A program made the position numbers and the translations under genes. DNA of 64,000 nucleotides from Ignavibacteriales bacterium (GTDB lineage Bacteria; Bacteroidota; Ignavibacteria; UBA10030), in NCBI GenBank assembly GCA_026390595.1, contig JAPLFQ010000023.1:1-64000 (forward strand), in the 5' to 3' direction. This document shows, piece after piece, positions 11,119 through 41,139 of the stretch (position 1 is the stretch's first letter; every line of letters begins with the position of its first letter). The notes beneath the pieces are model-generated. The model ran no database searches. It saw only the letters and a list, made by a program, of their open reading frames with translations, and had not been told where the DNA came from.

Positions 11119-12036
11119 TCATCGTTGAGGGTTCTTCGATAGTGCAGACTCAAGCACAGACCCCACCGAGTATGGCGTACGGAAACCGAGAAGCTTCCCA
11201 ACCGTCGGCGCAATATCCACCAGCTTGTGCGCGGACGAATCAACGACTCCCGCCGGCGTGTCGGGTCCGATGACGAGCAGCATGATATGCCTGCAACCTT
11301 CGCATCGATCGCCGTGGTCGGTGTAATCTGTGGTGTGGCGGCCATGGTCGTTCGTGACGATCATGGTCGTTTTGTCACGGAAGAGAGAATCTGCCTGAAT
11401 TGCATTCCAGATCGACGCCACTACGGTGTCTGCCTGACGAATCGCCCCTATATACTTGTCAAAAAACCCTTCGTGCGCCAATGAATCTGCAGCCGGCACG
11501 TTCACAATCATAAGTTTGGGATGGTGATTCGCCAGCACGAACGTCGTGTTTTGCAGGGCGACGAGGTTATCATACTCAGACGAGGATTTCTTCACTGACG
11601 CCCCATAGTGCGGGCCATATTCTTTGTGTGTGCTGAACGCAAGCATTTGCAGCTTGGACTTGCCCAGCACAACCCAGCACTGATCAACGGGTGCACCCGT
11701 TTGCTTCCTGAAATACTCGAACATCGTCGGGTTGTACGGCAATTCGGTCCCATTGTTCTTCAGAGTTTCGCGCGTACCCGCAAGGATACTTGCATGTCCC
11801 GAATTGGTCATCGTGGTGCCGTCATTCCAGAATGACGTATAGAGCGTGCCGAGCGGGCGCAACCGATTCCAGATGATCGGTATGTTGGCATGTGTCGAAT
11901 CGCCAAACGTCTCCGAATACCTGGTACCATCCACAACGACGAGGACGACGAATTGCGTCCGTTGAGCCAGCAGCTGTGAGCAAACAAGGAGCCAGAGTAG
12001 GAGAAGTTTGTAGAACCGGGAAACGAGGGATGTCAT
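11119..12036 (-). CDS. Secreted alkaline-phosphatase-superfamily hydrolase
   Basis: The 305-residue protein carries a signal peptide (KLLLLWLLVCSQLLA) and alkaline phosphatase/nucleotide pyrophosphatase superfamily motifs: a metal-binding Asp in VVVDGTRYSETFG, a probable nucleophile Thr in GTTMTNSGHASILAG, and downstream metal ligands in TNDHGRHTTDYTDHGD plus the APTVGKLLGF segment. It should hydrolyse phosphate mono- or diesters in the periplasm. It is the last gene of the leftward series that begins with the TonB receptor and the phytases, 69 bases after the purple-acid-phosphatase-like gene, so a role in releasing phosphate is plausible but unproven. The start at 12036 heads the signal peptide; the open frame extends to 12078. 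The RBS (AGAAAG) is weak. Confidence 0.75.
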   Translation of the reverse strand: MTSLVSRFYKLLLLWLLVCSQLLAQRTQFVVLVVVDGTRYSETFGDSTHANIPIIWNRLRPLGTLYTSFWNDGTTMTNSGHASILAGTRETLKNNGTELPYNPTMFEYFRKQTGAPVDQCWVVLGKSKLQMLAFSTHKEYGPHYGASVKKSSSEYDNLVALQNTTFVLANHHPKLMIVNVPAADSLAHEGFFDKYIGAIRQADTVVASIWNAIQADSLFRDKTTMIVTNDHGRHTTDYTDHGDRCEGCRHIMLLVIGPDTPAGVVDSSAHKLVDIAPTVGKLLGFRTPYSVGSVLESALSKNPQR

Positions 12037-12105
12037 GGATTTCTTTCTGATGCAAGTTCGCATATCCCCTAAGCTCACAAGCGTAGATCGCTTGATACCA
12101 CAGGA

Positions 12106-13053
12106 TTATCTACCTGGAGCGGGTGCGGCAATCTTCACGGTATGAAGAATCGTGCTGCTCGTATCAACAAAGCTAACCTGAAGCTGCTGCGCAGTAGCCC
12201 GCACGGAAACAAAACCGAGTACGCTCGCCCCGAATACAACATCTTCCCGGCTATGGACTTCCGTTCCGTGATCCGCCCCTCCTCCTAATACAACAAAATC
12301 CATCCCATCGCGCTTCAGGTGTTGCAGGAAATGCTGATGCGCTGAGACGTACAATGGAATGTCGTGAGCTTTCAGGATCGGAAGCAGCTCCTCTATCAGC
12401 TCTTCTGTGTTGCCCCCCTTGGGCGTCGCTGAATAGACCGGGTGATGACCGACGACAATCGTCCAGCGCGCACGTGAAGCGGTGAGGACAGAATCCAGCC
12501 ACACGAGTTGTTTCTTCGCGTCCTGTCCGGCCAGGCGATAGACGTTGGGCTCAAGTCTGTACTTCCTGATGAACGGGGAAGTATCCACATGCACGATGAG
12601 GAGCGACGTTGTGTCATCGATCAGTTCGTTCCGTGCGTAATACCGGGATGTGAATTTCCAGCGCTTGCTGAATGCGGTGTACCCGAGTTCCCCCTCGACG
12701 CTTCCGCGGTAATCATGGTTTCCCAGTGAAGGATACCACGGGATCTGAAGAGCAGGGTGGGAATAGACATCCTCGAATTCGGTCTTCCATCGCGGGTCGG
12801 TCGCGCTGGCAATCCCGTTCTCGTGAAAATTGTCCCCCACTGTCACAATAAACCGGGCCTTGATCCGTTCAGCTTCCTTCCCCATCGCGGCAGCCACCGC
12901 CTTCTGATCACCTGAGGCCAGTCCTCCCTCATCCCCCACCATGATGAAGCGGACGGAAGGTGTTTGCGTGGTCTGCGACCATGCGCCCGCGAACCCCAGC
13001 AGAAGGGTAGCGAACACCATCGGGAGCATCCTCTTTTTCCCTTGAAGGACCAT
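12106..13053 (-). CDS. Secreted purple-acid-phosphatase-like metallophosphoesterase
   Basis: The 315-residue product has an N-terminal signal peptide (MLPMVFATLLLGFAGAWSQ) and calcineurin-like metallophosphoesterase motifs in order: FIMVGDEGG (motif I), TVGDNFHENGI (motif II), SLGNHDYRG (motif III), VGHHPVYS (motif IV) and SAHQHFLQH (motif V). The GDN(F)xxxG and GNHDY forms match the small tartrate-resistant acid phosphatase type. It would remove phosphate from organic esters in the periplasm. GAGGTG lies about 5 bases before the ATG at 13053. It sits in the leftward phytase cluster between the monooxygenase-fold gene and the alkaline-phosphatase-like gene. Confidence 0.85.
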   Translation of the reverse strand: MVLQGKKRMLPMVFATLLLGFAGAWSQTTQTPSVRFIMVGDEGGLASGDQKAVAAAMGKEAERIKARFIVTVGDNFHENGIASATDPRWKTEFEDVYSHPALQIPWYPSLGNHDYRGSVEGELGYTAFSKRWKFTSRYYARNELIDDTTSLLIVHVDTSPFIRKYRLEPNVYRLAGQDAKKQLVWLDSVLTASRARWTIVVGHHPVYSATPKGGNTEELIEELLPILKAHDIPLYVSAHQHFLQHLKRDGMDFVVLGGGADHGTEVHSREDVVFGASVLGFVSVRATAQQLQVSFVDTSSTILHTVKIAAPAPGR

Positions 13054-13140
13054 CTTCACCTCATATGCTGCTTGATGAAACAGAGTCAATGAACGGCATT
13101 CACACATACGCCGCGGAGCTCGAAATCCCGGGCTCGCTCC

Positions 13141-13502: not shown

Positions 13503-14774
13503 TCAGAAGGCGTACTGCATTCTTAATGTGAAGACGTTGTCCGCAATGTCCTTCTCATAGCCAACAAGAAAAGGCGCGGTTTCATTCTGGACAATTTCGT
13601 AGTAACCCGTGAAACTGACATTGGCATCCCAGGTGTAGATCCAGCCTATGGCAAAGGTCGAGTATCTGATGTCTCCCGCCCCGAGGAGCGCCGCCTGTTG
13701 CCGCCCAATATGAATTCCTTCCACATCACGATTTGGATCATAGACATCGTACTTCAGGACCAGCCTGTTTGTCTCACCGAGGTTCTGGATGTAGATGAGA
13801 TAATACCCCATGAAACTCCTGAGATACAAGTTATCCGTTGCCAGGGCAGTCGGAGACGAAGAGCTCATCGGGCTGAATCCGGGCTGCATGCCCGAGATGA
13901 ATTCACCTCTGAGAAAAAAGCTCCCCAACAGCGGAACGGATGATGTGAGTTCCAAATCGAAACCCATGTAATCCCGGTTTGCCCATTCATCGACCGTGTT
14001 GGCGGAACAGAGAACCGGGGAATTGACAGTGTATATGGTCTTACCGGTCGGTTTCTTGACTTTACCAAGATATCCCGATACGCCCAAATCAAGTTCGGCC
14101 GGAATCATTGAGAGAGGGTAGTGCACGCCGAGTCTTCCGATAAAATCCTTCTGGTTGTCAACTTCTGGATTGATGCCGTTCCCTGCAAACAGCCCCCCCC
14201 TGAAACTGAAATGCGTCAATGGTCCCGACTTCGGTGTTATTTCAATTGCAGCGCCAAGATCAGCATCGTTTGGAAAAAGTGTTTGGAATAACCTCGATCG
14301 TTCCGGTGATTCTCTTTTCCCTGAAGAGTAGCCTATCTCGAATCCGAAGGGCCTGTCGAATGCTCCGGCTCGTAGTGCAAACGTTCTCAACCAGGGGTCT
14401 TGAAGGTAGGCATAGGCATCTTTCAGGAAGATGTTCTTTGCGTTTGATTCGATTTGAAATACAAACCGGGTTGACTCATTGTCATAGATCGTCTTCAATT
14501 GCACTCGTCTGATAAGAAAGCGATTATGCATCCCGGCGGAGAAATTTCCCCCGGCATAGGAGTCGATCCCATCAGTGGCGGCGGATTGGAATTGAGACTG
14601 GATGAAACCGGTCATAGTAATCTTCTTGAGCTCGCTCACAACCTTTTTCAAGGCGGCTGCAGATTGTTGAGCGCTGTCAACTGCCGCCGTACCGGATTGT
14701 CGGGCAAGAAGGACAGGAACAAGGAGGATGAACAGAAACAGAAGCTTCGCGAACCGGCTAGTATTGACTTTCAT
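13503..14774 (-). CDS. Phosphate-selective porin O/P family outer-membrane protein
   Basis: The 423-residue protein has a signal peptide (KLLFLFILLVPVLLA), a short helical spacer, and then a 16-strand-type porin sequence. Recognisable features are the first strand TMTGFIQSQFQ, FLIRRVQLKTIYDNESTRFVFQIE, LRAGAFDRPFGFEIGYSSGKRESPERSRLFQTLFP and the terminal aromatic residue (LRMQYAF). The RxPFGxE and ESPERS segments are typical of the OprO/OprP family. Members form anion channels for phosphate or polyphosphate. In a cluster with two phytases and two phosphatases it may carry released phosphate or inositol phosphates across the outer membrane. GGAG sits 11 bases before the chosen ATG. Confidence 0.85.
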   Translation of the reverse strand: MKVNTSRFAKLLFLFILLVPVLLARQSGTAAVDSAQQSAAALKKVVSELKKITMTGFIQSQFQSAATDGIDSYAGGNFSAGMHNRFLIRRVQLKTIYDNESTRFVFQIESNAKNIFLKDAYAYLQDPWLRTFALRAGAFDRPFGFEIGYSSGKRESPERSRLFQTLFPNDADLGAAIEITPKSGPLTHFSFRGGLFAGNGINPEVDNQKDFIGRLGVHYPLSMIPAELDLGVSGYLGKVKKPTGKTIYTVNSPVLCSANTVDEWANRDYMGFDLELTSSVPLLGSFFLRGEFISGMQPGFSPMSSSSPTALATDNLYLRSFMGYYLIYIQNLGETNRLVLKYDVYDPNRDVEGIHIGRQQAALLGAGDIRYSTFAIGWIYTWDANVSFTGYYEIVQNETAPFLVGYEKDIADNVFTLRMQYAF

Positions 14775-14950
14775 GGTTTTCGAATCTCCATACTGAGCCA
14801 CGGAGCATGAGCCGTGATTCTGCCGCGATAAGTGAAGGTCAACGCATGGTTGTCACGAAGATCCCGGACCCCGACAGTGACGAGCTTATGTTCTGTGAGT
14901 GTCCGGGATCAGTGTCAGTCCGTTCGGAGGTCGGCTCGATCTCTACGGAT

Positions 14951-16006
14951 CTATTTCGTTACTTTGAGAACCACAAATGTGTTGGGCAGAATCGGCCCTC
15001 TTGGCGCTGGAACTTGGGCAGTCGGAGCCGGCGCCGGTCCAAATTCTGCCGTGGGAAGATACAGCGTATGTGTTTCGGGATCGACCGTAATGGTCTTCGC
15101 ACCGAGTTGCGTCGCTACTGTTTCCAGCACGGAGAACTTCGACGGCGACTCTTCACGGATGACAGTCATCGTTCCCTCGCCATTTGATGTGAACACCAAT
15201 CCCGTTCCAGGATCGAATGCACAGCCATCAACCTTGGCGCCGATCGGCAGCGTTGCGATAACCGTGCCGTTATCGGAATCGAGCACGAACATCAATTTAT
15301 TGTGGCAAACCGAGAACAGGCGATGATGTTCAACATCGATCGCAAGACCTGTGGGTTCGTCACCGCCTTTGAGAGGCCACCGTCCGAAAATCTTCAACGT
15401 TGAAGCATTAAAAGCCACGACCTCGTTCTTGTCTTCGAGGTTTACAAAGATATGGCCTTTGCCATCGGTGGCGGAGAATTCAGGCTTTCCGCCCAAAGCG
15501 ATCGTTGAAATGACCGTTCCTTTCTCGGCATCGATAACGGAAGCATTCTCACTCTGTCCGTTATACACAAACACACGATGAGAAAATGCATCGTACAGAA
15601 TCGCGTCAGGTTTCTTTCCGACCGGGATTGTACCGGTAACCTGCAGAGTCTTCATGTCAACAACGCTCACCGTCGACGATGTCCCGTTGGTAATGAAACC
15701 GCGATTGAATTCATGCGCGATCGCCATCCCATGAACACCCTCAAGTTTCAAGATCTCACCGGTGACCTGATCTGTTTTCGCGTCGATGACAACAAATCTG
15801 TCAGCATGCGACACAAACAACCGGTGAGTCCGGGCATCGAATGTCAAGTAGTCCCAGCCTCCCTCGCCACCGACTTTGATTTTCTTGGCGACATGATATC
15901 CGGATTTGGTTTGAGCGTGCGCGGTGATCGATCCGACCAAAACAGCGATCATGAGTGCCAGTGTAACGAACCGCCTCTGACATCCGTAGCGTCTATGCGT
16001 CGTCAT
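14951..16006 (-). CDS. Secreted YncE/YVTN-type beta-propeller protein
   Basis: The 351-residue protein has a signal peptide (FVTLALMIAVLVGSITAHAQ) and repeats of about 42 residues typical of YncE/YVTN propellers: GWDYLTFDARTHRLFVSHADRFVVIDAKTDQV, SSTVSVVDMKTLQVTGTIPVGKKPDAILYD and similar blades. It ends with a Pro-rich segment. A clear paralogue lies at 36950-37987. Propellers of this family bind ligands or DNA in known cases, but no catalytic motif of a phytase is present. It is next to the cysteine phytase (136 bases) and ahead of the porin, so a binding or chaperone-like periplasmic role in the cluster is possible. GAGAGGA lies 8 bases before the start. Confidence 0.8.
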   Translation of the reverse strand: MTTHRRYGCQRRFVTLALMIAVLVGSITAHAQTKSGYHVAKKIKVGGEGGWDYLTFDARTHRLFVSHADRFVVIDAKTDQVTGEILKLEGVHGMAIAHEFNRGFITNGTSSTVSVVDMKTLQVTGTIPVGKKPDAILYDAFSHRVFVYNGQSENASVIDAEKGTVISTIALGGKPEFSATDGKGHIFVNLEDKNEVVAFNASTLKIFGRWPLKGGDEPTGLAIDVEHHRLFSVCHNKLMFVLDSDNGTVIATLPIGAKVDGCAFDPGTGLVFTSNGEGTMTVIREESPSKFSVLETVATQLGAKTITVDPETHTLYLPTAEFGPAPAPTAQVPAPRGPILPNTFVVLKVTK

Positions 16007-16142
16007 GCTATTGTCCTCTCTAAGTAGTGAAGAACCAGTCATGCGAATGCTCATTGCATTCCTGTGATGAGATACTACCCGCCGGTGAAATGGGGGCGAA
16101 AATCCGACAATACGATCCGCTTACCTTCTCTGGGTGCAACCA

Positions 16143-17177
16143 TTATCGCGGCGTCCTAAGCCACGCGCTCCAGAGAAGAGGCTGGCCGTTTGGATTGTTG
16201 CGAGCGTAGTCATAGAACGCTCGGACAAACTCGCTGCGGTCTTCGGCAACGCCCGCCTTACCGGCATCATCAGCAGCCGCAAGAAGATCATAGTCACCAA
16301 TTAGCAATGACTGGCGTTGCACGATATCCACAAGAGAAACTTTGCTTGCATTGCGAAGCATGTCATACAGCGCCATGAACGTGGTTGTTCGGCCTTTTCC
16401 GGCCCGGCAATGAAAGTGCGCCCAGGCATCCGCAGGCAATGCCCGAACATTGGTAATGAATCGATCTACCTCTTCGTCCAACGGACGTGAATGATCTGAC
16501 ACTGTGATTCGCTTGTAAGCCGCACCTGATGAGGTGACAACGTCTTTCTCCGTGCCAACACGAGCGACCGTGACATTTTCGACGGGACTCGCCGCATCCC
16601 CACCCTTTTTGGTTTTCGAATCACTGAGAGAAAGCGTGCTCCCCACCGGAATTGCTGCAACGCGCACGGCTTCACTGGCCTTTATTTCTTTGTTCGTCTT
16701 GCCGACATTAGCCCAGTTGTTCGTTGCATACCAACTGATGGGCTCTCCATTCACGAAAATGTGGTCTTCCTGACGCAGATCGAACACCGTTACCGGCCCG
16801 CGTAGCTGCTTCAGCATCAATTTCAGGCTCGCTTCCGTGTATTCACCGCTTCCGGATGCGCGCAATTCCTTCAGTCCCTGCACGTTTGGCGCTTTCCCTT
16901 CGGTCGCTTTGATCGGATCATCGCTCGAACGAAAGTTTCTTGGCATTCCAGCCCGGTCCGCAACAGCCACATCCCAAACTAGCAATGGATTGGATGCATC
17001 CTCGGGAGCCTTTGGTGGATGCTTCTGTTGAAGACCTGCTTGTTGTTGGGGCGCAACGGCGAGTTGCTTGCCGGCCGTCGTTTGCGCATGCGAAGGCACA
17101 ATGTTCAACGTGACCGCAATGATTATCGCGGCGCCTACAAACCTCGCGCAAACTCCGCTGCAGCTTTGCTTTTTCAT
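16143..17177 (-). CDS. PTP-like (cysteine) phytase / inositol polyphosphate phosphatase
   Basis: The 344-residue protein has a signal peptide and the hallmark P-loop HFHCRAGKGRTTTF (HCxxGxxR-T) of PTP-like phytases, with Cys as nucleophile and Arg binding phosphate. Upstream it shows GMPRNFRSSDD, the family's substrate-entry motif, FDLRQEDHIFVNGEPISWY, and VSDHSRP, which supplies the general-acid Asp. These features fit the Selenomonas-type enzymes that dephosphorylate myo-inositol hexakisphosphate stepwise in the periplasm. AAAGG lies about 8 bases before the ATG at 17177; the open frame runs to 17198. It follows the beta-propeller phytase by about 100 bases, so two unrelated phytase folds are encoded side by side. 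The region between residues 30 and 60 is a Gln/Pro-rich linker. Confidence 0.88.
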   Translation of the reverse strand: MKKQSCSGVCARFVGAAIIIAVTLNIVPSHAQTTAGKQLAVAPQQQAGLQQKHPPKAPEDASNPLLVWDVAVADRAGMPRNFRSSDDPIKATEGKAPNVQGLKELRASGSGEYTEASLKLMLKQLRGPVTVFDLRQEDHIFVNGEPISWYATNNWANVGKTNKEIKASEAVRVAAIPVGSTLSLSDSKTKKGGDAASPVENVTVARVGTEKDVVTSSGAAYKRITVSDHSRPLDEEVDRFITNVRALPADAWAHFHCRAGKGRTTTFMALYDMLRNASKVSLVDIVQRQSLLIGDYDLLAAADDAGKAGVAEDRSEFVRAFYDYARNNPNGQPLLWSAWLRTPR

Positions 17178-17280
17178 CTTGTCGACCTTTCTAATCAAAT
17201 AAATAACCGGACATGAGAACGCTTATCGCGCTCCCATGTCAAGTTACGATCGAAAAGTGAAATGGAGATGAAAAGACGCA

Positions 17281-18396
17281 CTACTTTGCTTTCTTGACTC
17301 CGTTGGGAGCGATCACCAGGTCGGTTCCTGCAATGTCTGCCCACGAGTAATACTGAAACGTCTTATCATCAGCCATCGCCACAAATAACCCCATTGGGAA
17401 CTTTGGACCCAATGGTACATTGGTCACATCCGAACCATCGCTGTTCGTCGTCGATACATCAACAACCTTCACTTCCTTCTGATCGTGCGGATTCCCGGGC
17501 TCACCTTCACGCTTGTAGATATGGAACTTGTTGGCGCTTTGGTTTGAAACGAGGATGTAGCCTGTTCCATCGTTGACCTCGTATATCGATATCCCTTCGT
17601 TATCTTCCAGATATCCTGCGACGCTGATCGTCCCGAGCTGTTTTTCGGCCCCCGGCATATCGGGATCAGCATAGTACTTGCGAACGCAAGACTGCTCGTC
17701 AGAATAGTACACGTAGCCGAGTTTGTCGTCAACGGCGATGGATTCGATTTCTTTCTTGCCACTGTAGAGACCAAACGCCCTTACCTTCGTTCCTTTTATG
17801 CCTCCCTTGCCGTCATCTTGCAGCAAATACTGCCAGAGATATCCGTCCAGCGGTCCGCTTTTTCTGCTCACAATTGCGTAGATAGCACCGTCTTTGGCCC
17901 TTTTGTAGATGGAGATACCCATCGGCCCCCGTTCCTTCTCTCCCGTGAACACATCAATCCCACCGTTGTCAATCGCTTTCATCTCGGGAACCTGGAATAT
18001 CCGAATCTTATTGGACTCGCGCTCGGTGGCGACTGCGATGTCGACTGGTTTGCCGTTGAGTATCAAGCCGTACTCTACGTCCACATTATTTGGTCGTTTC
18101 AGTCCCCTGACTGTCTTTTCCGGAACGATCTTTCCGTCGAGATCAAATACGTACAGAGCACCGTCGGCATTCTTGTCCGTACCGATAATGAGGCTCTTGG
18201 CCGGATCAACAGGATTAACCCAAATGGCAGGATCGTCAGTATCCCATTTCACTTGCTCCGTGACGACCACGGGTTTGATAACTTTTTTCTGATCTTGCGG
18301 AGTTGGCGTCACCTTGGTGCATCCAAGCACAAACGCTCCCACAACAACTCCGAGAGTGAGAATCCAAATCATCGCATTCTGTTTCGATCGTTTCAT
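17281..18396 (-). CDS. Beta-propeller phytase (3-phytase), lipoprotein
   Basis: The 371-residue product carries the beta-propeller phytase signature: WDTDDPAIWVNPVDPAKSLIIGTDK near the start, RPNNVDVEYG, ERGPMGISIYKR, KEIESIAVDD and YLEDNEGISIY, whose acidic residues bind Ca2+ and substrate in the family. Such enzymes remove phosphates from phytate (calcium-bound inositol hexakisphosphate). The N-terminus is a lipoprotein signal with Cys at residue 26 (GAFVLGC), so it is probably anchored to the outer membrane or periplasmic face. The ATG at 18396 has AGGGAG 8 bases upstream; a GTG directly precedes it. It is the first gene after the TonB receptor, an arrangement known in other phytate-using Gram-negatives. 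Confidence 0.92.
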   Translation of the reverse strand: MKRSKQNAMIWILTLGVVVGAFVLGCTKVTPTPQDQKKVIKPVVVTEQVKWDTDDPAIWVNPVDPAKSLIIGTDKNADGALYVFDLDGKIVPEKTVRGLKRPNNVDVEYGLILNGKPVDIAVATERESNKIRIFQVPEMKAIDNGGIDVFTGEKERGPMGISIYKRAKDGAIYAIVSRKSGPLDGYLWQYLLQDDGKGGIKGTKVRAFGLYSGKKEIESIAVDDKLGYVYYSDEQSCVRKYYADPDMPGAEKQLGTISVAGYLEDNEGISIYEVNDGTGYILVSNQSANKFHIYKREGEPGNPHDQKEVKVVDVSTTNSDGSDVTNVPLGPKFPMGLFVAMADDKTFQYYSWADIAGTDLVIAPNGVKKAK

Positions 18397-18504
18397 CACT
18401 GAGTCTCCCTTGATATATGACCTCTGTAGGTGATCCCCCTAATACAGCTTGACCACCGCTGCATCCGGTGGTCAAGCCGAGTGAAACTGTATCGCGCGCC
18501 TTGT

Positions 18505-21321
18505 TTACATCTTGAATTTCAGACCAACGTGCATCCACCACGAGTAGAATTCCTGCTGCAGCGGATGGCTTTCATCACCCTGATAGTATATCATGGGTTC
18601 TTTGTTCAGGTTGATCCACTCAAAGTACACTTGCAGCCCTTTGAAGAGGTCCTGGCTCGCTGAGAAGTCCATCTGCATGTGTTCTTTGTAGATTCTGTCG
18701 CGTTGCGCATCAATTCCAATGGCCTCAGTGAACTTGCCGTTGTAGCCTATGCTGTAGCGGCCTGAGAAACCATATTTCTCATAGCTGATAACGAAGTTGC
18801 CAACGTTTGCTGCCTGACCCGGCAACTCCGACCTCGTCAGACGGTTGCCCACATCCGCCGTGGATTTGGTATAGGCATAGTTAACTGCCACACCCAACCC
18901 GTCCAGGAACACTGGCAGGAACCTCAGCTGCGTTTCGAAATTGAATTCGAAACCTACGAGCGAAGAATTTCCGCCGTTCACCGGCTGTGTGAGCCAATAT
19001 CCGTCATAGGCACCACCGGCTATTTTCGTGGTTTGCGTGAAAATGATGTCGTTCAAATGCTTGTAGAAGACGCCGGCTGTAACCAGGCCGCCCCCCTGGA
19101 AATATTGCTCTGCCAGGAGGTCGAGGTTCGTGGCCGTAGTCGGCAACAAGCCCGCATTACCCTGCAATACTATAAGATTGTCGACATCGACCTGTTGATA
19201 GGGAACAATGTCGAAAAAGTTTGGACGGGCAAGCGTGTTTGTGTACGACACCCGGACATTGCTCATCGGCGTCAGTTTGTACCGGAATTGCAGCGAAGGC
19301 AGGAAATTGTTGTAATTGAGTTTCCCCTCTACCTTCGTCGTCGACAAATACGTGCCGCCCGGACCAAGAAGGATCTTGTTGCTTGAATTTGACACGTCGG
19401 TAAACTCATGCCGAACGCCCGCGATGATCATCAAGTCGTCGATGTTCCAGGTGTTCATTGCATAGTAGGCCATCGTATTCTCGTCTGCAGTGAAGCTGGC
19501 CCCTTCAGAATTGATGTGGTCCCACGTGTTGTTCTTGGGCATGAATCCGGTGGCTACGTCTTTCAGAGGAGTGAAATACGCCCTGTTCTTGTCGCCATCA
19601 ATGACACGGCCTACCCTGTAGGTTCCGTCGAGGATAGTGGCCTCATCGCCGATGAAGGGGGTCATGAGCAGATTGCTGGAACCTTTCCAGTTATAGATCC
19701 ATCGATCCTGATTCTTCACTTTCTCACGAATATGAACCTTGGCGCCAAATTTCAAAGCTGACGGATGATCCGCAAGCTTGAAATCATACTTCGCATTCAC
19801 TCCACCCATGTAATCCCGGTCCGTTGCGTTGTCGTTGTTGAATTTGATCTGGTCAAACTTGAAGTTGTCGGGATTATATTGATCGAATGTGGTCCCCGTG
19901 CTGGTATTCGTATACTGGGGTCTGCTCGGATTGCTCAAATCGAGGGTTAGGTTCGGTGTCGTTATCATGATAAACTGGGGATCGGTTTCATCATGCTTCT
20001 TGGTGCCTCCCTCGTTATAGGCGACAGTGTAATCAAGGTTCAGATTTCCCATCTTGTGAATCGCGCCCGCAGAAAGTGCAAAGAGATTCTGTCTCTCGAG
20101 GCGATCCTTGAGTGTGGTGTACAATTTTGCTTTTGTGACGCTGGTCGTGGTTGTAAATGTTCCCTTCGAAGGGCGGACATAGAGGCTGCGGCGATATTCG
20201 TAGTCATCACGGTTATTGAACATGCCGCGGATGAAGTACGAATTGTTCCCGCTGGGCTGGTAATCGAGATTGCCAGCCACATTGAATCTCTCACGCGATA
20301 CACGGTAGTTCCTCAAATCTATGTCCGTCAATACTTGATTCGTGGTCACACCACCGATTGTCTTGACATCCCAGGTGGTTTCGAGGTCCCAGTTTTCGCG
20401 CTGCCAGCTGTCATAGTTGCCTGTTATTGCTATGCCCAAAACGTTATCCGGGCCGAATTTTGTGCCAACCGTAAAACCACCCTGCCATAAGGTTTTTCCC
20501 AGGATGGCGCTGGTGCCCGAGCCTGCGGTGACATTGATAAACGGTTTGTCAGAGTCAAAAGCGCTTTTTGTCTTGATGTTTACAGATCCGCCGACCGCAT
20601 CACCGTCCATGTCCGGGGTCACAGTTTTCGAAACCTCGATGGAGGCTGCCTGACTGGCCGAGATCACGTCCATGCCGACGTAACGCTGTCCGGCGTCGGG
20701 AGCGATGATCTTTTCACCGTTCACGGAAATGGAAGTGAGGCGGGCATCCGTGCCGCGGATTTGAACGTACCGGCCTTCCCCCTGATCGCGCACGATCGAG
20801 ACACCGGGGATGCGCTGCAGAATCTCAGCGGTGTTCAAATCGGGCAGGCGCTGCATTTGCTCCTGCGAGACTACGTTTAATATATTATCCGAAGTCTTCT
20901 GAATATTGAGTGCCTTGTTTTGCCCCACCCGCAACCCGCTGATGACGACACCCGTGAGTTCGACAACGGTGGATTTCATAGCCACATCCTTGGTGAGCGA
21001 ACTGCCGGCGGAAACTGTGACGGGTACCGTTTGTTCCTCGTACCCGATGTATCGCACGGTCAATTCGTACTCGCCCGCGGGAACGTTGAATATCCGGTAC
21101 AGTCCATTCCGATCCGTCGAACCACCAAGAGCCGTTCCTTTCAACATCACATTCGCTCCCGGCAGGTATTCCTTTGAATCTGCATCAGTAATTCGACCGT
21201 TGATTTGCCCAGTCTGCTGAGCCCAACTTGTGCCCGGCATCATGAAGATACCTGCGAGCACAAGCAGGACGAGGATCCAATGGGGAGAGGTCCTCAAAAT
21301 CGGTAAGGTGGTTGTAGCCAT
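18505..21321 (-). CDS. TonB-dependent receptor with carboxypeptidase-like N-terminal domain
   Basis: The 938-residue protein has a signal peptide (HWILVLLVLAGIFMMPGTSWAQ), a carboxypeptidase-regulatory-like domain (GQINGRITDADSKEYLPGANVMLKGT ... YIGYEEQTV), a plug domain (LQRIPGVSIVRDQGEGRYVQIRG, VSKTVTPDMDGDAVGGSVNIKTKS) and a 22-strand-type barrel ending in a typical aromatic-hydrophobic strand (VGLKFKM). The TPDMDxDAVGGSVN motif places it in the Xanthomonas/Caulobacter-type TonB receptor group. Such receptors import scarce ligands too large for porins. Its position directly ahead of the beta-propeller phytase gene suggests phytate or inositol phosphates as ligand; this is inference from context. 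GGAGG lies 8 bases before the ATG at 21321; the frame is open further to 21489. Confidence 0.88.
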   Translation of the reverse strand: MATTTLPILRTSPHWILVLLVLAGIFMMPGTSWAQQTGQINGRITDADSKEYLPGANVMLKGTALGGSTDRNGLYRIFNVPAGEYELTVRYIGYEEQTVPVTVSAGSSLTKDVAMKSTVVELTGVVISGLRVGQNKALNIQKTSDNILNVVSQEQMQRLPDLNTAEILQRIPGVSIVRDQGEGRYVQIRGTDARLTSISVNGEKIIAPDAGQRYVGMDVISASQAASIEVSKTVTPDMDGDAVGGSVNIKTKSAFDSDKPFINVTAGSGTSAILGKTLWQGGFTVGTKFGPDNVLGIAITGNYDSWQRENWDLETTWDVKTIGGVTTNQVLTDIDLRNYRVSRERFNVAGNLDYQPSGNNSYFIRGMFNNRDDYEYRRSLYVRPSKGTFTTTTSVTKAKLYTTLKDRLERQNLFALSAGAIHKMGNLNLDYTVAYNEGGTKKHDETDPQFIMITTPNLTLDLSNPSRPQYTNTSTGTTFDQYNPDNFKFDQIKFNNDNATDRDYMGGVNAKYDFKLADHPSALKFGAKVHIREKVKNQDRWIYNWKGSSNLLMTPFIGDEATILDGTYRVGRVIDGDKNRAYFTPLKDVATGFMPKNNTWDHINSEGASFTADENTMAYYAMNTWNIDDLMIIAGVRHEFTDVSNSSNKILLGPGGTYLSTTKVEGKLNYNNFLPSLQFRYKLTPMSNVRVSYTNTLARPNFFDIVPYQQVDVDNLIVLQGNAGLLPTTATNLDLLAEQYFQGGGLVTAGVFYKHLNDIIFTQTTKIAGGAYDGYWLTQPVNGGNSSLVGFEFNFETQLRFLPVFLDGLGVAVNYAYTKSTADVGNRLTRSELPGQAANVGNFVISYEKYGFSGRYSIGYNGKFTEAIGIDAQRDRIYKEHMQMDFSASQDLFKGLQVYFEWINLNKEPMIYYQGDESHPLQQEFYSWWMHVGLKFKM

Positions 21322-21440
21322 AATCATTTCCTCCCTGAAGGAATGATAGGTGGTGGGTTCGTGGATGTTGATTGTGTAATTCTGTTTCTCGATTACTCTC
21401 TGCAAGAATCTTGAACAGAAATGGCAGGTTGTTGTTTTGT

Positions 21441-21484
21441 ACCACCGGGGCGGGTTTGTCGGATCCGGTGCTCGCCGCGGTGGT
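21441..21484. repeat. GC-rich inverted repeat between repressor and receptor genes
   Basis: ACCACCGGGGCG (21441-21452) and CGCCGCGGTGGT (21473-21484) form a 12-bp stem with one mismatch and a 20-base loop. It lies between the end of the leftward repressor gene and the leftward TonB receptor gene. The base run after the stem on the minus strand is A/C-rich, so it is not a standard terminator; it might stabilise RNA ends or reduce read-through. Confidence 0.5.
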
Positions 21485-21504
21485 GACACGGTGCGACTCG
21501 CTCT

Positions 21505-22584
21505 TTAGACTTGAGCGACAGAATCTCTCTCTATTAAATGCGATGCCAGCACGATGGACTTCGGACCCTCCTTGGAACCGCGAATCCTGGTGCTGATAAG
21601 TTTCATGCTTTCCTCGCCCATTTCATAAATGGGCTGGTGCATCGTCGTGAGCGGGAAGTTATGGTAGCCGAGATCATCATAGCCCACGATGGAAAGATCT
21701 TCGGGGAAAGAGATTCCCATTGTTCTTGCGACAGCGTAGAACGTGAACGCAATTCTGTCGTGCGCCGCAAAGATGGCGGTGAATTTCTTTTTCTGCTTCA
21801 GGATCGACTGTGCATACTTTGTGAACTGTTCATCGTTGAACGGTCCAGGATGACTGACGACAATGGACGGTTCGTACTGAATACCGTGGTCGCTCAGAGC
21901 CTTCCGGTATCCATCGAAGCGCAGGCGCTCAGTGCTGACGATGTTGCTGTACACAAACGCAATCTTGCTGTGCCCTTTGTTAATGAGATACGTTGTCATC
22001 TTGTACGCGCCGTCAAGATTGTCCGTGGTCACGTGATCGATCTCGAGGTTGGGCACTGAGCGATCGGCGAGCACGACCGGAATATCACGCTCTTTGAATT
22101 TCTGAACGATCATCTTGTTCTTCGCGTCCGGTGAGGCGGTCGGAACATAAATGACGCCGCTGACAGAGTTTTCTATCAGCCTGTTCGCGTGAAACTCCGC
22201 CTTGATAAAAAGGTCGTCTGAACTACACACCATCAGGCTGTGCTTGCTCTTCGCCGCTTTGTCTTCCACTCCACGAGCGAGTTCAGGGGCATACCCCGAC
22301 CTGATATCCGGCACGATAATTCCGACGATTGTTTGCTTTTGAGTGGTAATCTGCGGGATCGTAACGAATGTCCCCAGCCCCTTTTTCCGGCTGAGATAGC
22401 CCATACCCACGAGGTTCTGAATCGCCTGCCGCACTGTTGCCCGTGCGAGACCCGTGAGCTGCGTGAGTTCCTCTTCAGTGGGTATCCTGTCTTGCGGCTT
22501 GAAGATCCCCTCCTGAATCTGTTCGGCGAGCCACGTCTGCAGCTGGAAGTACTGAGGTATCGGGCTATTCTTGTCGACGATCAT
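21505..22584 (-). CDS. GntR-headed, LacI/periplasmic-binding-type sugar-responsive repressor (AraR-like architecture)
   Basis: Residues 1-75 are a GntR winged helix: SPIPQYFQLQTWLAEQIQEG, DRIPTEEELTQLTGLARATVRQAIQNLVGMGYLSRKKGLGTFV. Residues 83-359 are a LacI/ribose-binding-type effector domain (VGIIVPDIRSGYAPELARGVED ... GYRKALSDHGI ... FPEDLSIVGYDDL). This architecture is known from the arabinose repressor AraR. The gene is divergent from the dehydrogenase-led inositol operon. A 12-bp palindrome with GTCTAGAC, a sequence fitting the GntR-family operator form GTnTAnAC, overlaps its own promoter, and a related double palindrome overlaps the facing promoter. Likely effector: inositol or an early product. 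The SD is weak; the start is the first Met of the frame and fits the family. Confidence 0.9.
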   Translation of the reverse strand: MIVDKNSPIPQYFQLQTWLAEQIQEGIFKPQDRIPTEEELTQLTGLARATVRQAIQNLVGMGYLSRKKGLGTFVTIPQITTQKQTIVGIIVPDIRSGYAPELARGVEDKAAKSKHSLMVCSSDDLFIKAEFHANRLIENSVSGVIYVPTASPDAKNKMIVQKFKERDIPVVLADRSVPNLEIDHVTTDNLDGAYKMTTYLINKGHSKIAFVYSNIVSTERLRFDGYRKALSDHGIQYEPSIVVSHPGPFNDEQFTKYAQSILKQKKKFTAIFAAHDRIAFTFYAVARTMGISFPEDLSIVGYDDLGYHNFPLTTMHQPIYEMGEESMKLISTRIRGSKEGPKSIVLASHLIERDSVAQV

Positions 22585-22601: not shown

Positions 22602-22613
22602 TTGTCTAGACAA
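22602..22613. promoter_or_regulatory. Repressor operator O1 (TTGTCTAGACAA)
   Basis: A perfect 12-bp palindrome, TTGTCTAGACAA, 18 bases upstream of the repressor start codon and touching the -10 box of its promoter. Its GTCTAGAC core matches the GntR-family operator form. The same 12-mer occurs once more at 22761-22772, in front of the divergent operon. Confidence 0.8.
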
Positions 22614-22732: not shown

Positions 22733-22763
22733 TTGACTCGCAAATGTCTCCTTCATATCTTTG
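22733..22763 (+). promoter_or_regulatory. Promoter of the inositol operon
   Basis: TTGACT (22733-22738) is followed after 17 bases by TATCTT (22756-22761). The same place reads TATCTTTG (22756-22763), which also fits the Bacteroidota TAnnTTTG box. Operator O2 overlaps its end. The first gene starts 70 bases downstream. Confidence 0.7.
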
Positions 22764-22781
22764 TCTAGACAACTAGACAAA
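22760..22781. promoter_or_regulatory. Repressor operator O2, compound palindrome
   Basis: Nine-base arms TTTGTCTAG and CTAGACAAA flank ACAA, forming a 22-base palindrome. It contains a second, overlapping perfect 12-bp palindrome identical to O1 (22761-22772). It covers the end of the -10/-7 promoter box, the expected site for a repressor. Three half-sites in this spacing could allow two dimers to bind. Confidence 0.8.
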
Positions 22782-22832
22782 GCATCAGCAACAAACGTTC
22801 CTACCTATAGCAGAAAGCAACGCGGAGGAAAA

Positions 22833-23876
22833 ATGAACACAATGAAAGCACTTGCGTACAAAGCCATTGGCAAGATCGAACTTGAAGACAGGGCCGTTCC
22901 TAAGATCTCAGCACCGAACCAGGTTCTCGTGAAGGTCATCGCCTGCGGGATATGCGGGACGGATGTCAAGATCCTGGAAGGAAAACACGCCGTCGGCGTA
23001 AATGCAGTCCTGGGCCACGAATTCGTCGGCACCGTCCAGGAGATCGGCAGCGCAATCACCACGATGAAACCCGGAGACCGCGTTGCAGTCGATAATAGTC
23101 TTCGCTGCGGCGTGTGCGAGTTCTGCCGGTCAGGCATGAGCAGCCAGTGCGAATGGCTGAAGGACAAATCCATCGGAATTTTCCAGGATGGAGGATATGC
23201 CGAATATTGTGTGCTCCCCGAAAATGCCTGTTACAAAGTGCCGGACTCAATCGATGACATCACCGCTACACAAGTGGAAACACTTGGCACCGTCCTTAAC
23301 GGAATGAACATCGTGCAAATGCAGCCGTGGGACTCCGTCGTCGTGCTCGGCTTCGGACCGATCGGCTACCTGTTTTCTGCGCTGGCTGATAATGTGGCCG
23401 CGCGGGTGATGTGCACCGAGATCGATCCGTTTAGAATCAACGTCGCAAAGCAGCTCGGTGTGCCGGTGTTCAACCCGAACGAGATCGACATCGAGAAACA
23501 AGTGAAGACCTTCACAGACGGAAAGGGTGCCGACATCGTTATCGATGCGGTCGGAACTCAGCTCGAGAACGCACTGAACTATGTCGCCCCCGGGGGCAAG
23601 GTCCTCGCATTCGGCATGGACAGCAGCGTCAAGGCAACAATCACACCGAACACCATCACGCGGAAAGCAATCAAGGTTCTCGGGTCTTACATAGGTCAGA
23701 ATACCTGCCTGCCCGCGATCAAGATCCTCCAGTCACACAAACTCAACATGGCTCCCTTCTTCACGGAAGTGATTCGTCTCGAAGATGGTGTGAGCGCTTT
23801 TGGAAAGCTGGGTCTCGATTTCGCGACGATGAAGCACATTCCAAAGAAGGCAATGAAGATCGTCATCAAGCCGTAG
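22833..23876 (+). CDS. Zinc-dependent medium-chain alcohol/polyol dehydrogenase
   Basis: The 347-residue enzyme shows the catalytic-zinc motif ACGICGTDVKIL, GHEFVGTVQEIG, a structural-zinc quartet CGVCEFCRSGMSSQC (spacing 3-3-8) and a Rossmann fold (VVVLGFGPIGYLFSALAD). It should oxidise a polyol or reduce a ketose with NAD(P). It is the first gene of the repressor-controlled operon and is clearly distinct from the IolM-like dehydrogenase further down. Possible substrates are an inositol, an inositol phosphate, or a later product such as a ketogluconate; sequence does not decide. GGAGG lies 6 bases before the ATG at 22833; the frame is open back into the operator, which rules out the earlier start. 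Confidence 0.85.
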   Translation: MNTMKALAYKAIGKIELEDRAVPKISAPNQVLVKVIACGICGTDVKILEGKHAVGVNAVLGHEFVGTVQEIGSAITTMKPGDRVAVDNSLRCGVCEFCRSGMSSQCEWLKDKSIGIFQDGGYAEYCVLPENACYKVPDSIDDITATQVETLGTVLNGMNIVQMQPWDSVVVLGFGPIGYLFSALADNVAARVMCTEIDPFRINVAKQLGVPVFNPNEIDIEKQVKTFTDGKGADIVIDAVGTQLENALNYVAPGGKVLAFGMDSSVKATITPNTITRKAIKVLGSYIGQNTCLPAIKILQSHKLNMAPFFTEVIRLEDGVSAFGKLGLDFATMKHIPKKAMKIVIKP

Positions 23877-23924: not shown

Positions 23925-25277
23925 ATGAACAGGGTATTGAAGTTCTTTGCTACCGGTCGAGACGCGCCTCTGATCGAAGATCAGACACGTGTGAGTGCTC
24001 TTTATAAGAAGCATCGATGGCGGATCATGACGGCGATTACATTCGGCTATGGAATAGCATATACGTGCCGTCTCGCGTTGTCCGTCGTAAAGAAACCATT
24101 GATCGATGGCGGGATCTTCAATGCTCAGGAATTAGGACTGATCAGTTCGGCAATCTTCTATTCGTATGCATTTGGCAAACTGACAAACGGGTTTCTTGCA
24201 GACCACGCCAATCTCAAGAGGTTCCTCTCCTTCGGCATTTTGATGTCGGCTTTAATAAACATCGCCATGGGCTGGACTCCGTTACTCTGGGTCTGGGTGG
24301 TTCTCTGGGCCTTGAACGGCTGGTTTCAAGGGATTGGTGCTCCGTCCGCGATGGTGTCGATAACAAACTGGTTCAGCAACAATGAAAGAGGAAGATGGTA
24401 TGGGTTCTTCAGTATGGGGCACCCCACCGGCGAGGGGTTGACATACGTTGTCATCGCAGGCCTGGTAACTTTGTTCGGTTGGCGTGCTGGTTTCATGGGC
24501 CCCGGACTCACCTGCGTGGCTGTCGCATTCATCATGCATTACCTGCTTCAGGATCGCCCGAAAACACTCGGACTACCTCTTGTGGCGGACTGGAGAAACG
24601 ACCACGGAGCACCGGTGGTTGACACGGGACAGAAGGCGCCAAGCGTCTGGTCTCTTCAAAAATCCATTTTGAAGTTGCCCTCCATTTGGATTCTTGCCTT
24701 GGCGAGCAGCATGATGTACGTGACACGATATGCTGTGGTCAATTGGGGAATTCTCTTCCTGCAGGAGACCAAAGGCTACTCTTTAGTGGAGGCAGGTAGT
24801 CTCCTTGGGCTCAATACAATCGCTGGCCTTATCGGAAGCCTCAGCTACGGATACATATCCGACAAATTCTTCCACGCCAAACGTCCCCCTGTGACCCTGA
24901 TCTGCGGTCTGTTGGAGCTTCTTGCCTTGAGCATCATTTTTCTCTCGCCATTAGCGAGTGTCACGTTGCTGTCATTCGCATTTATCCTCTATGGGTTCTC
25001 CATCAGCGGGCTGCTCGTTTCACTCGGCGGGCTGTTTGCCACTGATATAGCACCAAAGAAAGCCGCTGGGGCCGCAATGGGGATCATCGGGGTCTTCAGC
25101 TACCTTGGTGCTGCCACGCAGGACCTCATCAGCGGTTACTTCATCGAGAAAGGAACCACGATCGTCGACGGGGTCAGGCACTATGATTTCAGCTCGGCAA
25201 TCATTTTCTGGGTGGGGGCTTCCGTCCTCTCCCTCATCCTTGCGACATCCCTGTGGAAAGCAAAAGTGAGCGACTAA
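23925..25277 (+). CDS. MFS transporter of the organophosphate:phosphate antiporter (GlpT/UhpT) family
   Basis: The 450-residue protein has 12 predicted membrane segments. The region NGWFQGIGAPSAMVSITNWFSNNERGRWYGFFSMGHPTGEG closely matches the central loop of GlpT/UhpT-type antiporters, and the N-terminal helix YGIAYTCRLALSVVKKPLI carries the family's basic residues. Known members exchange a sugar- or glycerol-phosphate for inorganic phosphate. In an operon for inositol breakdown beside secreted phytases, an inositol monophosphate is an attractive substrate, but this is inference. AAGGGG lies 7 bases before the start and the kinase gene begins 16 bases after its stop. Confidence 0.85.
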   Translation: MNRVLKFFATGRDAPLIEDQTRVSALYKKHRWRIMTAITFGYGIAYTCRLALSVVKKPLIDGGIFNAQELGLISSAIFYSYAFGKLTNGFLADHANLKRFLSFGILMSALINIAMGWTPLLWVWVVLWALNGWFQGIGAPSAMVSITNWFSNNERGRWYGFFSMGHPTGEGLTYVVIAGLVTLFGWRAGFMGPGLTCVAVAFIMHYLLQDRPKTLGLPLVADWRNDHGAPVVDTGQKAPSVWSLQKSILKLPSIWILALASSMMYVTRYAVVNWGILFLQETKGYSLVEAGSLLGLNTIAGLIGSLSYGYISDKFFHAKRPPVTLICGLLELLALSIIFLSPLASVTLLSFAFILYGFSISGLLVSLGGLFATDIAPKKAAGAAMGIIGVFSYLGAATQDLISGYFIEKGTTIVDGVRHYDFSSAIIFWVGASVLSLILATSLWKAKVSD

Positions 25278-25293: not shown

Positions 25294-26202
25294 ATGGCAA
25301 CTGTGAAAAAGAAATATGACATGGTCATTTTCGGCAACTATACGAAGGACACCATCATCACACCGTCAGGTACGCGGTATCTCGACGGCGGAGGGTTCAA
25401 CTATGGCGCCCATGCAGCGCGGATGCTTGGATTGAACGTCGCCGCGGTGACGCGCCTCGCGAAGGAAGATGAACGGGTTGTCAACAAGCTCAAGAATATC
25501 GGTATCGATGTGTTTCCTTTTTATACTCCTTCGTCGACACATATGGTGCTGGAATACCGCTCCGCAAATCCCGACGACAGGATACTTCGCTGCGCAAAGA
25601 CTGCCGGTTCGTTTACACCGGACCAGTTTGAATCGCTCGAAGCCAGAGCGTTCCTGATGAATGGCTCTATCCGCGGGGAAATCCCGTTGGAGGTTGTGCG
25701 CTCGCTTCGAAAAAAAGACGCCCTCCTCGTTGCAGACCTGCAGGGCTTCATACGGATCATCGCACCAGACACCACGCTTCTCCACGCCCCGTGGCCGGAA
25801 AAAGAAGAACATCTGAAATTGGTCGATGTGCTCAAGACCGATGCCGTCGAAGCCGAATCACTCACCGACGAATCGGATATCAAGAAGGCCGCTACCGCTC
25901 TCGCGAAGATGGGTCCGAAGGAAGTGGTTCTGACGCACAAAGATGGAATCCTTGTGCTGGCAGATGGAATTTTCTACGAGGCGCCGTGGCGAAACAAGAG
26001 CTTGATCGGCAGAAGCGGCCGCGGGGATACCTGTATTGCTTCCTACATCACGAAAAGGCTGACGGAACCCCCGGAAGTGGCCATCATCTGGTCCGCCGCT
26101 ACAACAAGCCTGAAGATGGAAGCCGAAGGCCCGTTCCTCCGCGGTGAGAGTGATGTTCGTGATTTCATGGCGAAAGAGTACCAATCAGTCGGTCTTGCCT
26201 AG
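25294..26202 (+). CDS. PfkB-family carbohydrate kinase
   Basis: The 302-residue protein has the ribokinase-fold start FGNYTKDTIITPSGTRYLDGGGFNYGAHAARMLGLNV and the second PfkB signature GRSGRGDTCIASYITKRL, where GxGD supplies the catalytic Asp. Such kinases phosphorylate sugars, ketoacids or polyols; myo-inositol kinases and ketogluconate kinases are known in the family. Its operon partners are the antiporter upstream and the metallophosphoesterases downstream. As part of an inositol route it may act on inositol itself or on a keto-acid product. AAGGAG lies 7 bases before the ATG. Confidence 0.85.
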   Translation: MATVKKKYDMVIFGNYTKDTIITPSGTRYLDGGGFNYGAHAARMLGLNVAAVTRLAKEDERVVNKLKNIGIDVFPFYTPSSTHMVLEYRSANPDDRILRCAKTAGSFTPDQFESLEARAFLMNGSIRGEIPLEVVRSLRKKDALLVADLQGFIRIIAPDTTLLHAPWPEKEEHLKLVDVLKTDAVEAESLTDESDIKKAATALAKMGPKEVVLTHKDGILVLADGIFYEAPWRNKSLIGRSGRGDTCIASYITKRLTEPPEVAIIWSAATTSLKMEAEGPFLRGESDVRDFMAKEYQSVGLA

Positions 26203-27413: not shown

Positions 27414-27542
27414 TGTATCCGGAGCACTGGTGCTCTCCGGTGCCTTCTTGAACACGACTGTTCGACAGAATGAAGCCGGAAAGATCTGCCGGGCCACGAT
27501 ATCGCTCTATCATCATTCCAGAAACACCAGGGAGTACATACA

Positions 27543-28733: not shown

Positions 28734-28807
28734 AAAAGATACTTCAACAATTGTTTCACCACGCGGACATTCGTTCAGGGTTCGCCAATCAGAAAAGGGA
28801 ATACACC

Positions 28808-29821: not shown

Positions 29822-29861
29822 TACACACACTGAACGACATCACATTTCGACAGGAGCTGTC

Positions 29862-32165: not shown

Positions 32166-32169
32166 TACG

Positions 32170-32967: not shown

Positions 32968-33083
32968 CCGGGCTTGCCATCGGTATCCACTGCACCGTTT
33001 CACACAATCACATTGCATAACAATCTGTGTCATCGTCGATCGACAGAATCGGGCACGGCACCCCCTCGATGCAGCGCAAACTT

Positions 33084-34574: not shown

Positions 34575-34661
34575 CAGGATCTTCATCAGTGCAGATCTCG
34601 TACCATCCGTGTTATCAGCGTTCTATTCCTGGCTATATCGGGTCTGCTTGAAAGGACTATT

Positions 34662-36577: not shown

Positions 36578-36949
36578 ATGCGACGTGTGAACGTGTAGAT
36601 GCGTCAGGAACTGATCGCCGACGGGCTCAGTATGACCGCGGCAGCGGCAGATGTGTTGAAGCAGTTGAGACGGGAGAGTAGACTTGATACCACTTCCTTC
36701 CATTCATTGTCTTCAACAAGCGGGATTCAAGCATGAGCTATTTCGGCATCGCGGACAACGGGAGTGCGCCGCCGGAGGAATCGGACAAAGATCCTCTCTG
36801 ATGCGGGCGCGTCGACGAGCAGAACAAAGCTGATGTCGATACGTTAGTACTCTATTGCTTCGCGGGCACAGGTGAAGCACTCCCTGCGATTCCCTGAACG
36901 CAAACCGGATTTGTCAAATTCACTCCATCTACTCACTCAAGGAGATTCC
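36578..36949. other. Gene-free region after the inositol operon
   Basis: This 370-base gap has no convincing gene, terminator or long repeat. A 45-codon frame at 36599-36736 starts MRQELIADGLSMTAAAADVLKQL and looks protein-like, but it lacks an RBS and a recognisable family, so it may be a remnant. The last ten bases hold GGAG for the downstream propeller gene. Confidence 0.35.
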
Positions 36950-38800: not shown

Positions 38801-38833
38801 TCCTGAAGCCCAGTGATTAAAGGAATCAAAGAG

Positions 38834-40117: not shown

Positions 40118-40132
40118 TCCGAGAGAGCACAC

Positions 40133-41131: not shown

Positions 41132-41139
41132 GATCTCCC

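Follow-up and report, generated by a model that had tools for sequence, protein, structure and literature searches.

Two phytase families beside an IolM-IolN-IolO inositol pathway: a probable phytate-utilization island in an Ignavibacteriales genome

Organization of the locus

The window studied here is a stretch of 64,000 nucleotides (contig JAPLFQ010000023.1, positions 1 to 64,000) from the draft genome of an Ignavibacteriales bacterium (GenBank assembly GCA_026390595.1). It carries a phytase locus in which a protein tyrosine phosphatase-like (PTP-like) cysteine phytase and a beta-propeller phytase are encoded side by side. The two frames are co-directional on the minus strand, 82 bp apart, and lie downstream of the gene of a TonB-dependent receptor on the same strand. 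The leftward row comprises, in order of position, a YVTN protein, the PTP-like phytase, the beta-propeller phytase, the receptor and a regulator; beyond the regulator, a divergent row on the plus strand encodes inositol catabolism (Table 1). An earlier note on this DNA had pointed to the two adjacent, co-directional phytase genes. The pair itself is borne out, whereas the wider inositol-catabolic island, with the regulator in its middle, had been missed. The association of phytases with a receptor, the IolG-M-N-O row, a palindrome shared by the two rows and the recurrence of phytases with IolN in other genomes lead us to propose a regulated phytate-utilization island, which would serve both phosphate and carbon supply and in which the tandem would result from a merger of cassettes. 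We give this reading a probability of roughly 0.8.

Table 1. Features of the island and its surroundings in the window
Feature	Position	Strand	Evidence
Alkaline-phosphatase-superfamily protein	11119-12078	-	PF01676, PF00884
Purple-acid-phosphatase-like enzyme	12106-13107	-	PF00149; tartrate-resistant acid phosphatase structures, E 3.8e-44
Porin-like protein	13503-14801	-	no Pfam or NCBIfam match
YVTN-type beta-propeller protein	14951-16054	-	TIGR02276 repeats
PTP-like cysteine phytase	16143-17198	-	PF14566, E 2.3e-27; PDB, E 9.3e-103
Beta-propeller phytase, predicted lipoprotein	17281-18399	-	PF02333, E 2.3e-52
TonB-dependent receptor	18505-21489	-	TIGR01782; PF00593, PF07715, PF13715
Regulator, GntR DNA-binding and LacI-type ligand domains	21505-22584	-	PF00392, PF13377
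Palindrome TTGTCTAGACAA, proposed operator, phytase side	22602-22613		one of two genome copies
Palindrome TTGTCTAGACAA, proposed operator, inositol side	22761-22772		one of two genome copies
Zinc dehydrogenase, IolM-related	22761-23876	+	NF041097, 186.5 bits, below cut-off 450
Major facilitator superfamily (MFS) transporter, GlpT/UhpT/UhpC group	23925-25277	+	NF008661, 276 bits, below cut-off 564
PfkB kinase, TM0415 homologue	25294-26202	+	PDB 1vk4, E 6.8e-43
Metallophosphatase	26223-27413	+	PF00149
Metallophosphatase, weakly purple-acid-phosphatase-like	27543-28733	+	PF00149; best PDB E 3.5e-05
IolG, inositol 2-dehydrogenase (true start later)	28607-29821	+	TIGR04380
IolM, scyllo-inosose 3-dehydrogenase	29739-31049	+	NF041097, 483.7 bits, cut-off 450
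IolN, 3-dehydro-scyllo-inosose hydrolase	31071-32165	+	NF041098, 299.4 bits, cut-off 245
IolO, 5-keto-L-gluconate epimerase	32140-32967	+	NF041099, 363.2 bits, cut-off 300
Ribose-type ATP-binding cassette (ABC) transporter (ATPase, permease, binding protein)	33027-36577	+	RbsA/RbsC/RbsB group, all below equivalog cut-offs

Samples and definitions

Families were called at the curated cut-offs of Pfam and NCBIfam, and the nearest structures were taken from sequence searches of the Protein Data Bank (PDB). By a true IolN we mean a match to the IolN profile over its cut-off. The genome samples were 150 relatives and 395 genomes of the phylum, the window's own being among both, and 150 genomes of the family of G508, an Opitutaceae genome itself included. 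A pattern-limited contig scan for PTP-like phytase loci, started from the PTP-like side only, yielded 40 loci in 39 genomes; this set apparently overlaps the relatives (locus L040 with genome G002, L065 with G129). Weak PF14566 matches, all confined to the later half of the profile, were not accepted as phytases. They concern G109 and G123 among the 150 relatives, G123, G398, G433, G422, G207, G445, G466 and G159 in the 395-genome sample, and 11 further genomes.

The two phytases

Family searches place both proteins where the earlier note had put them, each over a curated cut-off. The beta-propeller phytase scores 178.7 bits against PF02333 (cut-off 21), and among solved structures it comes closest to the beta-propeller phytases of Bacillus (E 4.7e-39), with a match over about 290 residues. 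Ten of the 12 calcium and phosphate positions of the Bacillus active site appear to be kept. By eye, the protein agrees with the published family motifs DA[ATE]DDPA[ILV]W and NN[VI]D[ILV]R[YDQ] (PMC4017775) at seven of nine positions (WDTDDPAIW) and six of seven (NNVDVEY). Unlike the Bacillus enzyme, it has a predicted lipoprotein signal: its N-terminus, VVVGAFVLGC, is by eye a lipobox, and the GC is conserved throughout an alignment of four homologues. PF02333 has a single match in the window's genome. In G268, of the same class, three matches were seen, on contigs C19, C25 and C44, and one of these belongs to a frame of 830 residues.

The PTP-like phytase scores 96.4 bits against PF14566 (cut-off 27). 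Its closest structures are PTP-like phytases, or myo-inositol phosphohydrolases, the best being a tandem-repeat enzyme. The gene probably starts at the ATG at 17177, and a signal peptide is recognized by eye. In the 350-residue frame, the P-loop HCRAGKGRT begins at residue 262 and an acid-loop Asp-His stands at 234-235; the P-loop HCxxGxGRT and the acid-loop DH tabulated for PTP-like phytases (PMC12406696) are thereby both present. An alignment of three sequences shows no variation at Cys263, Arg269, Asp234 or His235. With the Selenomonas and Mitsuokella enzymes of the PDB the protein shares the P-loop, the acid-loop Asp-His and a match over nearly its whole length; it differs from them in being single-domain and in its place in the family tree (see below). 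Here too, the genome has a single family match. Identity with XopH, a type III effector 1-phytase, was rejected (250.2 bits against an equivalog cut-off of 500), and the protein is classed simply as a general PTP-like phytase. Elsewhere in the family, direct tandems of PTP-like matches were seen in metagenome-assembled genomes (MAGs): two in a Verrucomicrobia MAG (L055 10001-12180) and three, two of which share one frame, in a Megamonas MAG (L060 8140-10855). A Selenomonas MAG (L069 10001-12845) has a gene with 32% identity to IolG at a distance of about 1.1 kb from a PTP-like phytase.

The inositol row

Besides the Iol enzymes, the divergent row encodes a PfkB kinase, the PDB matches of which are TM0415, a close relative and one weak hit. 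TM0415 is a pyrophosphate (PPi)-dependent kinase acting on myo-inositol and encoded in the Thermotoga inositol operon; K171, F221, R229, R232 and M266 are the five PPi-signature residues of its type (PMC5931981). In the window's kinase, four of the five are identical and F221 is replaced by Trp (numbering of the 7e4l chain). At the acceptor site, D11, Q141 and R145 are kept and position 78 is Leu, a residue also found in homologue No. 49, for which the authors doubt that inositol is the true acceptor (PMC5931981).

Recurrence of phytases with IolN

A true IolN occurs in five of the 150 relatives: the window's genome, G001, G002, G004 and G008. The IolN cluster contains a PTP-like phytase in G002 and a beta-propeller phytase in G008. 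A phytase over cut-off was found in four of these five genomes, the window's included, and in four of the 145 others, the latter count including, to the disadvantage of the association, two partial matches (G109 for PF14566, G126 for PF02333); the Fisher p value is 1.7e-5, uncorrected for kinship. Among 51 further genomes with a beta-propeller match, two (G253, a single contig, and G505) have a true IolN, in the same cluster as the phytase and 15.1 and 17.3 kb away from it, respectively. Finally, the family of G508 has a true IolN in 2/150 genomes. In G508 itself (locus L041), a PTP-like phytase, a YVTN propeller, a receptor, IolM, IolN and an IolO-like gene stand together, and in G666 a beta-propeller phytase is grouped with an MFS transporter, a TM0415-like kinase and Iol genes.

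In all, the samples yielded nine true-IolN loci. The flanks can be judged in seven, the window's included, and all seven have a phytase in the cluster. The six other islands, distributed over two phyla, are each limited to a single phytase type, which is the beta-propeller one in four of them and the PTP-like one in two. Since such single-phytase islands exist, one type seems to suffice for the arrangement to persist. UxaE, which would act after IolO, is present once in the window's genome, off the island on contig C8 (E 9.7e-55); it lies next to the phytase in the G253 and G505 islands (PF16257, E 3.5e-56 and 2.9e-55).

Regulator and palindrome

The palindrome TTGTCTAGACAA occurs in two places in the 4.77-Mb genome, one at either end of the sequence that separates the regulator from the inositol row. 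The wider pattern TTGTMTAKACAA matches the same two places only, and the pattern read backwards matches none. Each copy overlaps a promoter-like -10 element by one base, the last of the element being the first of the palindrome; the promoter-like sites are TTGACA-17-TATGAT on the phytase side (11/12) and TTGACT-17-TATCTT on the inositol side (9/12). In G002, two exact copies occupy the matching place. In G505, the regulator and IolG-M-N-O are preceded by an exact match of the pattern, and the receptor/phytase row by a copy with one mismatch. G253 has exact matches before the regulator and just before the beta-propeller phytase, as well as a one-mismatch copy before its transporter row; one of its four one-mismatch copies lies inside the phytase gene. 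With at most one mismatch, no palindrome was found in G008, G666 or L041; a counterpart of the regulator is about 30% identical in the first two, and no match to it was found in L041. None was found either in the contigs of G001 and G004, from which the regulator region is absent. As judged from these sequences, the palindrome is the best evidence for a single phytase and inositol regulon.

The receptor scores 461.6 bits against TIGR01782, over the subfamily cut-off of 310, and probably has its true start near 21320. A GC-rich hairpin was seen by eye in the gap that separates the receptor gene from the phytase gene, both in the window (18400-18504) and in G002 (L031 17204-17455) and G505 (L152 5221-5321). 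Possibly, it sets differing expression of the receptor and of the enzyme.

Origin of the tandem

Beta-propeller phytase matches are present in 51 of the 395 phylum genomes (50 over cut-off), and PTP-like matches in nine, over cut-off in the window's own only. No beta-propeller match was found in the 39 genomes reached through PTP-like loci. Within the genomes sampled, the tandem is rare, that of the window being the only one found.

The PTP-like phytase was placed in a tree of 42 rows, L066 and L067 being left out as their best matches span fewer than 200 residues; L055 is represented by two rows, and of the three rows from L060 two come from the same frame. The window's protein groups with L040, apparently the G002 copy, next to the Opitutaceae L041 (96/97). 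The window's protein and L040 fall within a branch of 20 (100/99) whose other members are Verrucomicrobiota, and they stand apart from the remaining Ignavibacteriota copies. This nesting suggests that the gene was transferred between phyla, in either direction.

For the receptor of the window, identity is 69% with the counterpart in the beta-propeller island G505 and 44% with the one in the PTP-type island G002. In contrast, the window's PTP-like phytase is 76% identical to that of G002, and the YVTN propeller, which neighbours the PTP-like phytase in G002 and L041 as well, is 75% and 43% identical to their homologues. Three states coexist within one genus: beta-propeller only in G001, where the phytase gene is directly followed by metallophosphatase and alkaline-phosphatase-like genes, PTP-like only in G002, and both in the window. 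Given these resemblances and states, and since either phytase serves on its own in relatives, the tandem appears to have arisen by the merging of two cassettes that can stand in for each other. One would consist of the receptor and the beta-propeller phytase, the other of the PTP-like phytase and the YVTN propeller, joined at one site.

Other genes around the island

The porin-like protein (13503-14801) may resemble phosphate porins; its structure predicted without alignment has a mean predicted local distance difference test (pLDDT) score of 33 and was not used. Paralogues of YVTN type stand at both flanks of the island (14951-16054 and 36872-37987), and G505 has one at its island edge. The adjacent metallophosphatases (26223-28733) appear to be a duplication; in G002, G008 and G505, one place matches both. 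Past the island, a resistance-nodulation-division (RND) efflux set (38813-44190) comprises an outer-membrane factor, a membrane-fusion protein and an AcrB-type pump. A large flavin adenine dinucleotide (FAD)/iron-sulfur oxidoreductase (44237-47098), 8 kb past the ABC transporter, has the same profile matches as a gene of the G505 island (L151 13493-16360) and might catalyse a further step in the use of inositol.

Relation to known systems

A phytase gene beside a TonB-dependent receptor gene has been described in Flavobacterium johnsoniae (Fjoh_1367/1368; PMC8115612) and in Citromicrobium, where the phytase type is unnamed (PMC3400609). The window shares with these loci the phytase-receptor adjacency and, with Flavobacterium, a PF02333 phytase. 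In the available parts of those reports, the loci are described without a PTP-like phytase or inositol-catabolic genes, as means of using organic phosphorus or organic matter. Searches of titles and abstract openings in the openly licensed literature found no paper on a phytase with the IolM-N-O pathway, and none on a tandem of beta-propeller and PTP-like phytases. Neither is mentioned in the accessible portions of PMC9430895, PMC12482443 and PMC12406696. Receptor plus phytase is the known part; the joining of phytases to the IolM-N-O inositol pathway, as found here, did not turn up in these searches.

The inositol pathway of Thermotoga maritima was reportedly first described by Rodionova in 2013. 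It is encoded by the operon TM0411-TM0416 (PMC5931981, PMC12632266, PMC3750489). With Thermotoga, the window's cluster shares IolM, IolN and IolO, here over cut-off, IolG, here just under it, and a TM0415-type kinase. It differs in joining phytases and an outer-membrane receptor to the pathway, in having a GntR/LacI-type instead of a ROK-type regulator, and in the location of UxaE on another contig.

Weighing the explanations

In the proposed phytate-utilization island, the receptor would take phytate, or partly dephosphorylated forms, to the periplasm. There, outside the cytoplasm, the lipid-anchored beta-propeller phytase, acting on calcium-phytate, and the exported PTP-like phytase would remove phosphates, and the metallophosphatases would help to strip the molecule to inositol monophosphate and inositol. 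Uptake of these products would be ensured by the ABC transporter and perhaps by the MFS transporter. IolG and IolM would then oxidize the inositol, IolN would open the ring and IolO would epimerize the product to D-tagaturonate, the substrate of UxaE, the next enzyme. The regulator would sense inositol or a derivative and repress both gene rows.

Several observations weigh against this scheme. IolG, at 327.3 bits, is just under the TIGR04380 cut-off of 355, although this profile is its best library match. Two of the 12 active-site positions of the beta-propeller phytase appear to differ from Bacillus: Tyr159 is Met, invariantly so in the four homologues, and Asp308 is unaligned. Among the relatives, the beta-propeller phytase of G001 sits on a 3.3-kb contig of its own, and the G004 genome, which is 84% complete and has its IolN on a 6.3-kb contig, gave no phytase match. 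The IolN loci are few and their sampling is in part biased, since it was a phytase that led to G253, G505 and G508, and several of the others share a genus or a family. Besides the window, the loci reached otherwise (G001, G002, G004, G008 and G666) comprise three with linked phytase, one with phytase on another contig and one without a match. As to regulation, no operator was found directly before the receptor or the phytases in the window; control of these genes would therefore rely on read-through from the regulator promoter. Promoter-like sites number 11 against 10.6 in shuffled sequences, terminator-like ones being likewise no commoner, and one-mismatch palindromes are near chance in the AT-rich loci of G253 (four against a shuffled mean of 1.35) and G505 (two against 1.1). 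In addition, a terminator-like hairpin (17240-17210) separates the two phytase genes; given this hairpin, co-transcription of the PTP-like gene with its upstream row may not be constant.

The strongest competing view, to which we give somewhat less than an even chance, concerns the tandem itself. As the earlier note had supposed, the two enzymes would form a complementary pair, the beta-propeller phytase stopping at inositol trisphosphates and the PTP-like enzyme continuing, so that fuller dephosphorylation would keep the genes adjacent. Differing end products of the two families, InsP3 isomers for beta-propeller phytases and Ins(2)P for PTP-like phytases, would agree with it, as do the unlike folds and the co-directional adjacency of the genes, and such a pair would be compatible with the island. 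On the other hand, either type seems enough in the six other islands, which have one only, the metallophosphatases could complete the dephosphorylation begun by either enzyme, and a single tandem was found in the 395-genome and 39-genome samples.

A second view, which we consider improbable, would reduce the locus to phosphorus scavenging: phytases and receptor would answer phosphate starvation, and the inositol genes would be neighbours with a separate purpose. Low phosphate does induce the beta-propeller phytase together with a TonB-dependent receptor in F. johnsoniae (PMC8115612), and 49 of the 51 further genomes with a beta-propeller match have no true IolN. However, phytase recurs with IolM-N-O across genera and in two phyla, and the palindrome is common to both sides. 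Lastly, erroneous joining of the cassettes of two strains is unlikely, and the least probable explanation: the tandem does occur in one genome only, a draft in 36 contigs, with same-genus relatives having one phytase type or the other, but the contig has 276,825 bases, the assembly is 95.67% complete and 0.36% contaminated, each phytase gene is single-copy and island genes lie on both sides.

Returning to the phytate-utilization island, a bolder and rather doubtful extension may be envisaged. Outside Thermotoga, IolM-IolN-IolO would natively be a phytate-carbon route, carried between phyla as a regulated island in which either phytase can fill the same slot; the MFS transporter would take up inositol monophosphate against phosphate, and the PPi kinase would act on an intermediate of phytate breakdown. 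The natural acceptor of the TM0415-type kinase is unsettled in Thermotoga. If the extension were true, kinases of this type would tie carbon use to the pyrophosphate/phosphate pool.

Concluding remarks

Bacterial phytases have mostly been treated as phosphorus enzymes. That phytases and a complete inositol pathway are grouped about a single regulator would imply that phytate carbon supports growth in little-cultured environmental lineages. In a reported test, the organism in which the IolM-N-O pathway and the TM0415 kinase were described failed to grow on inositol (PMC3750489), and the island would give both a physiological setting. A relative carrying it, such as the source of G253, would make this reading directly testable if it were in culture.

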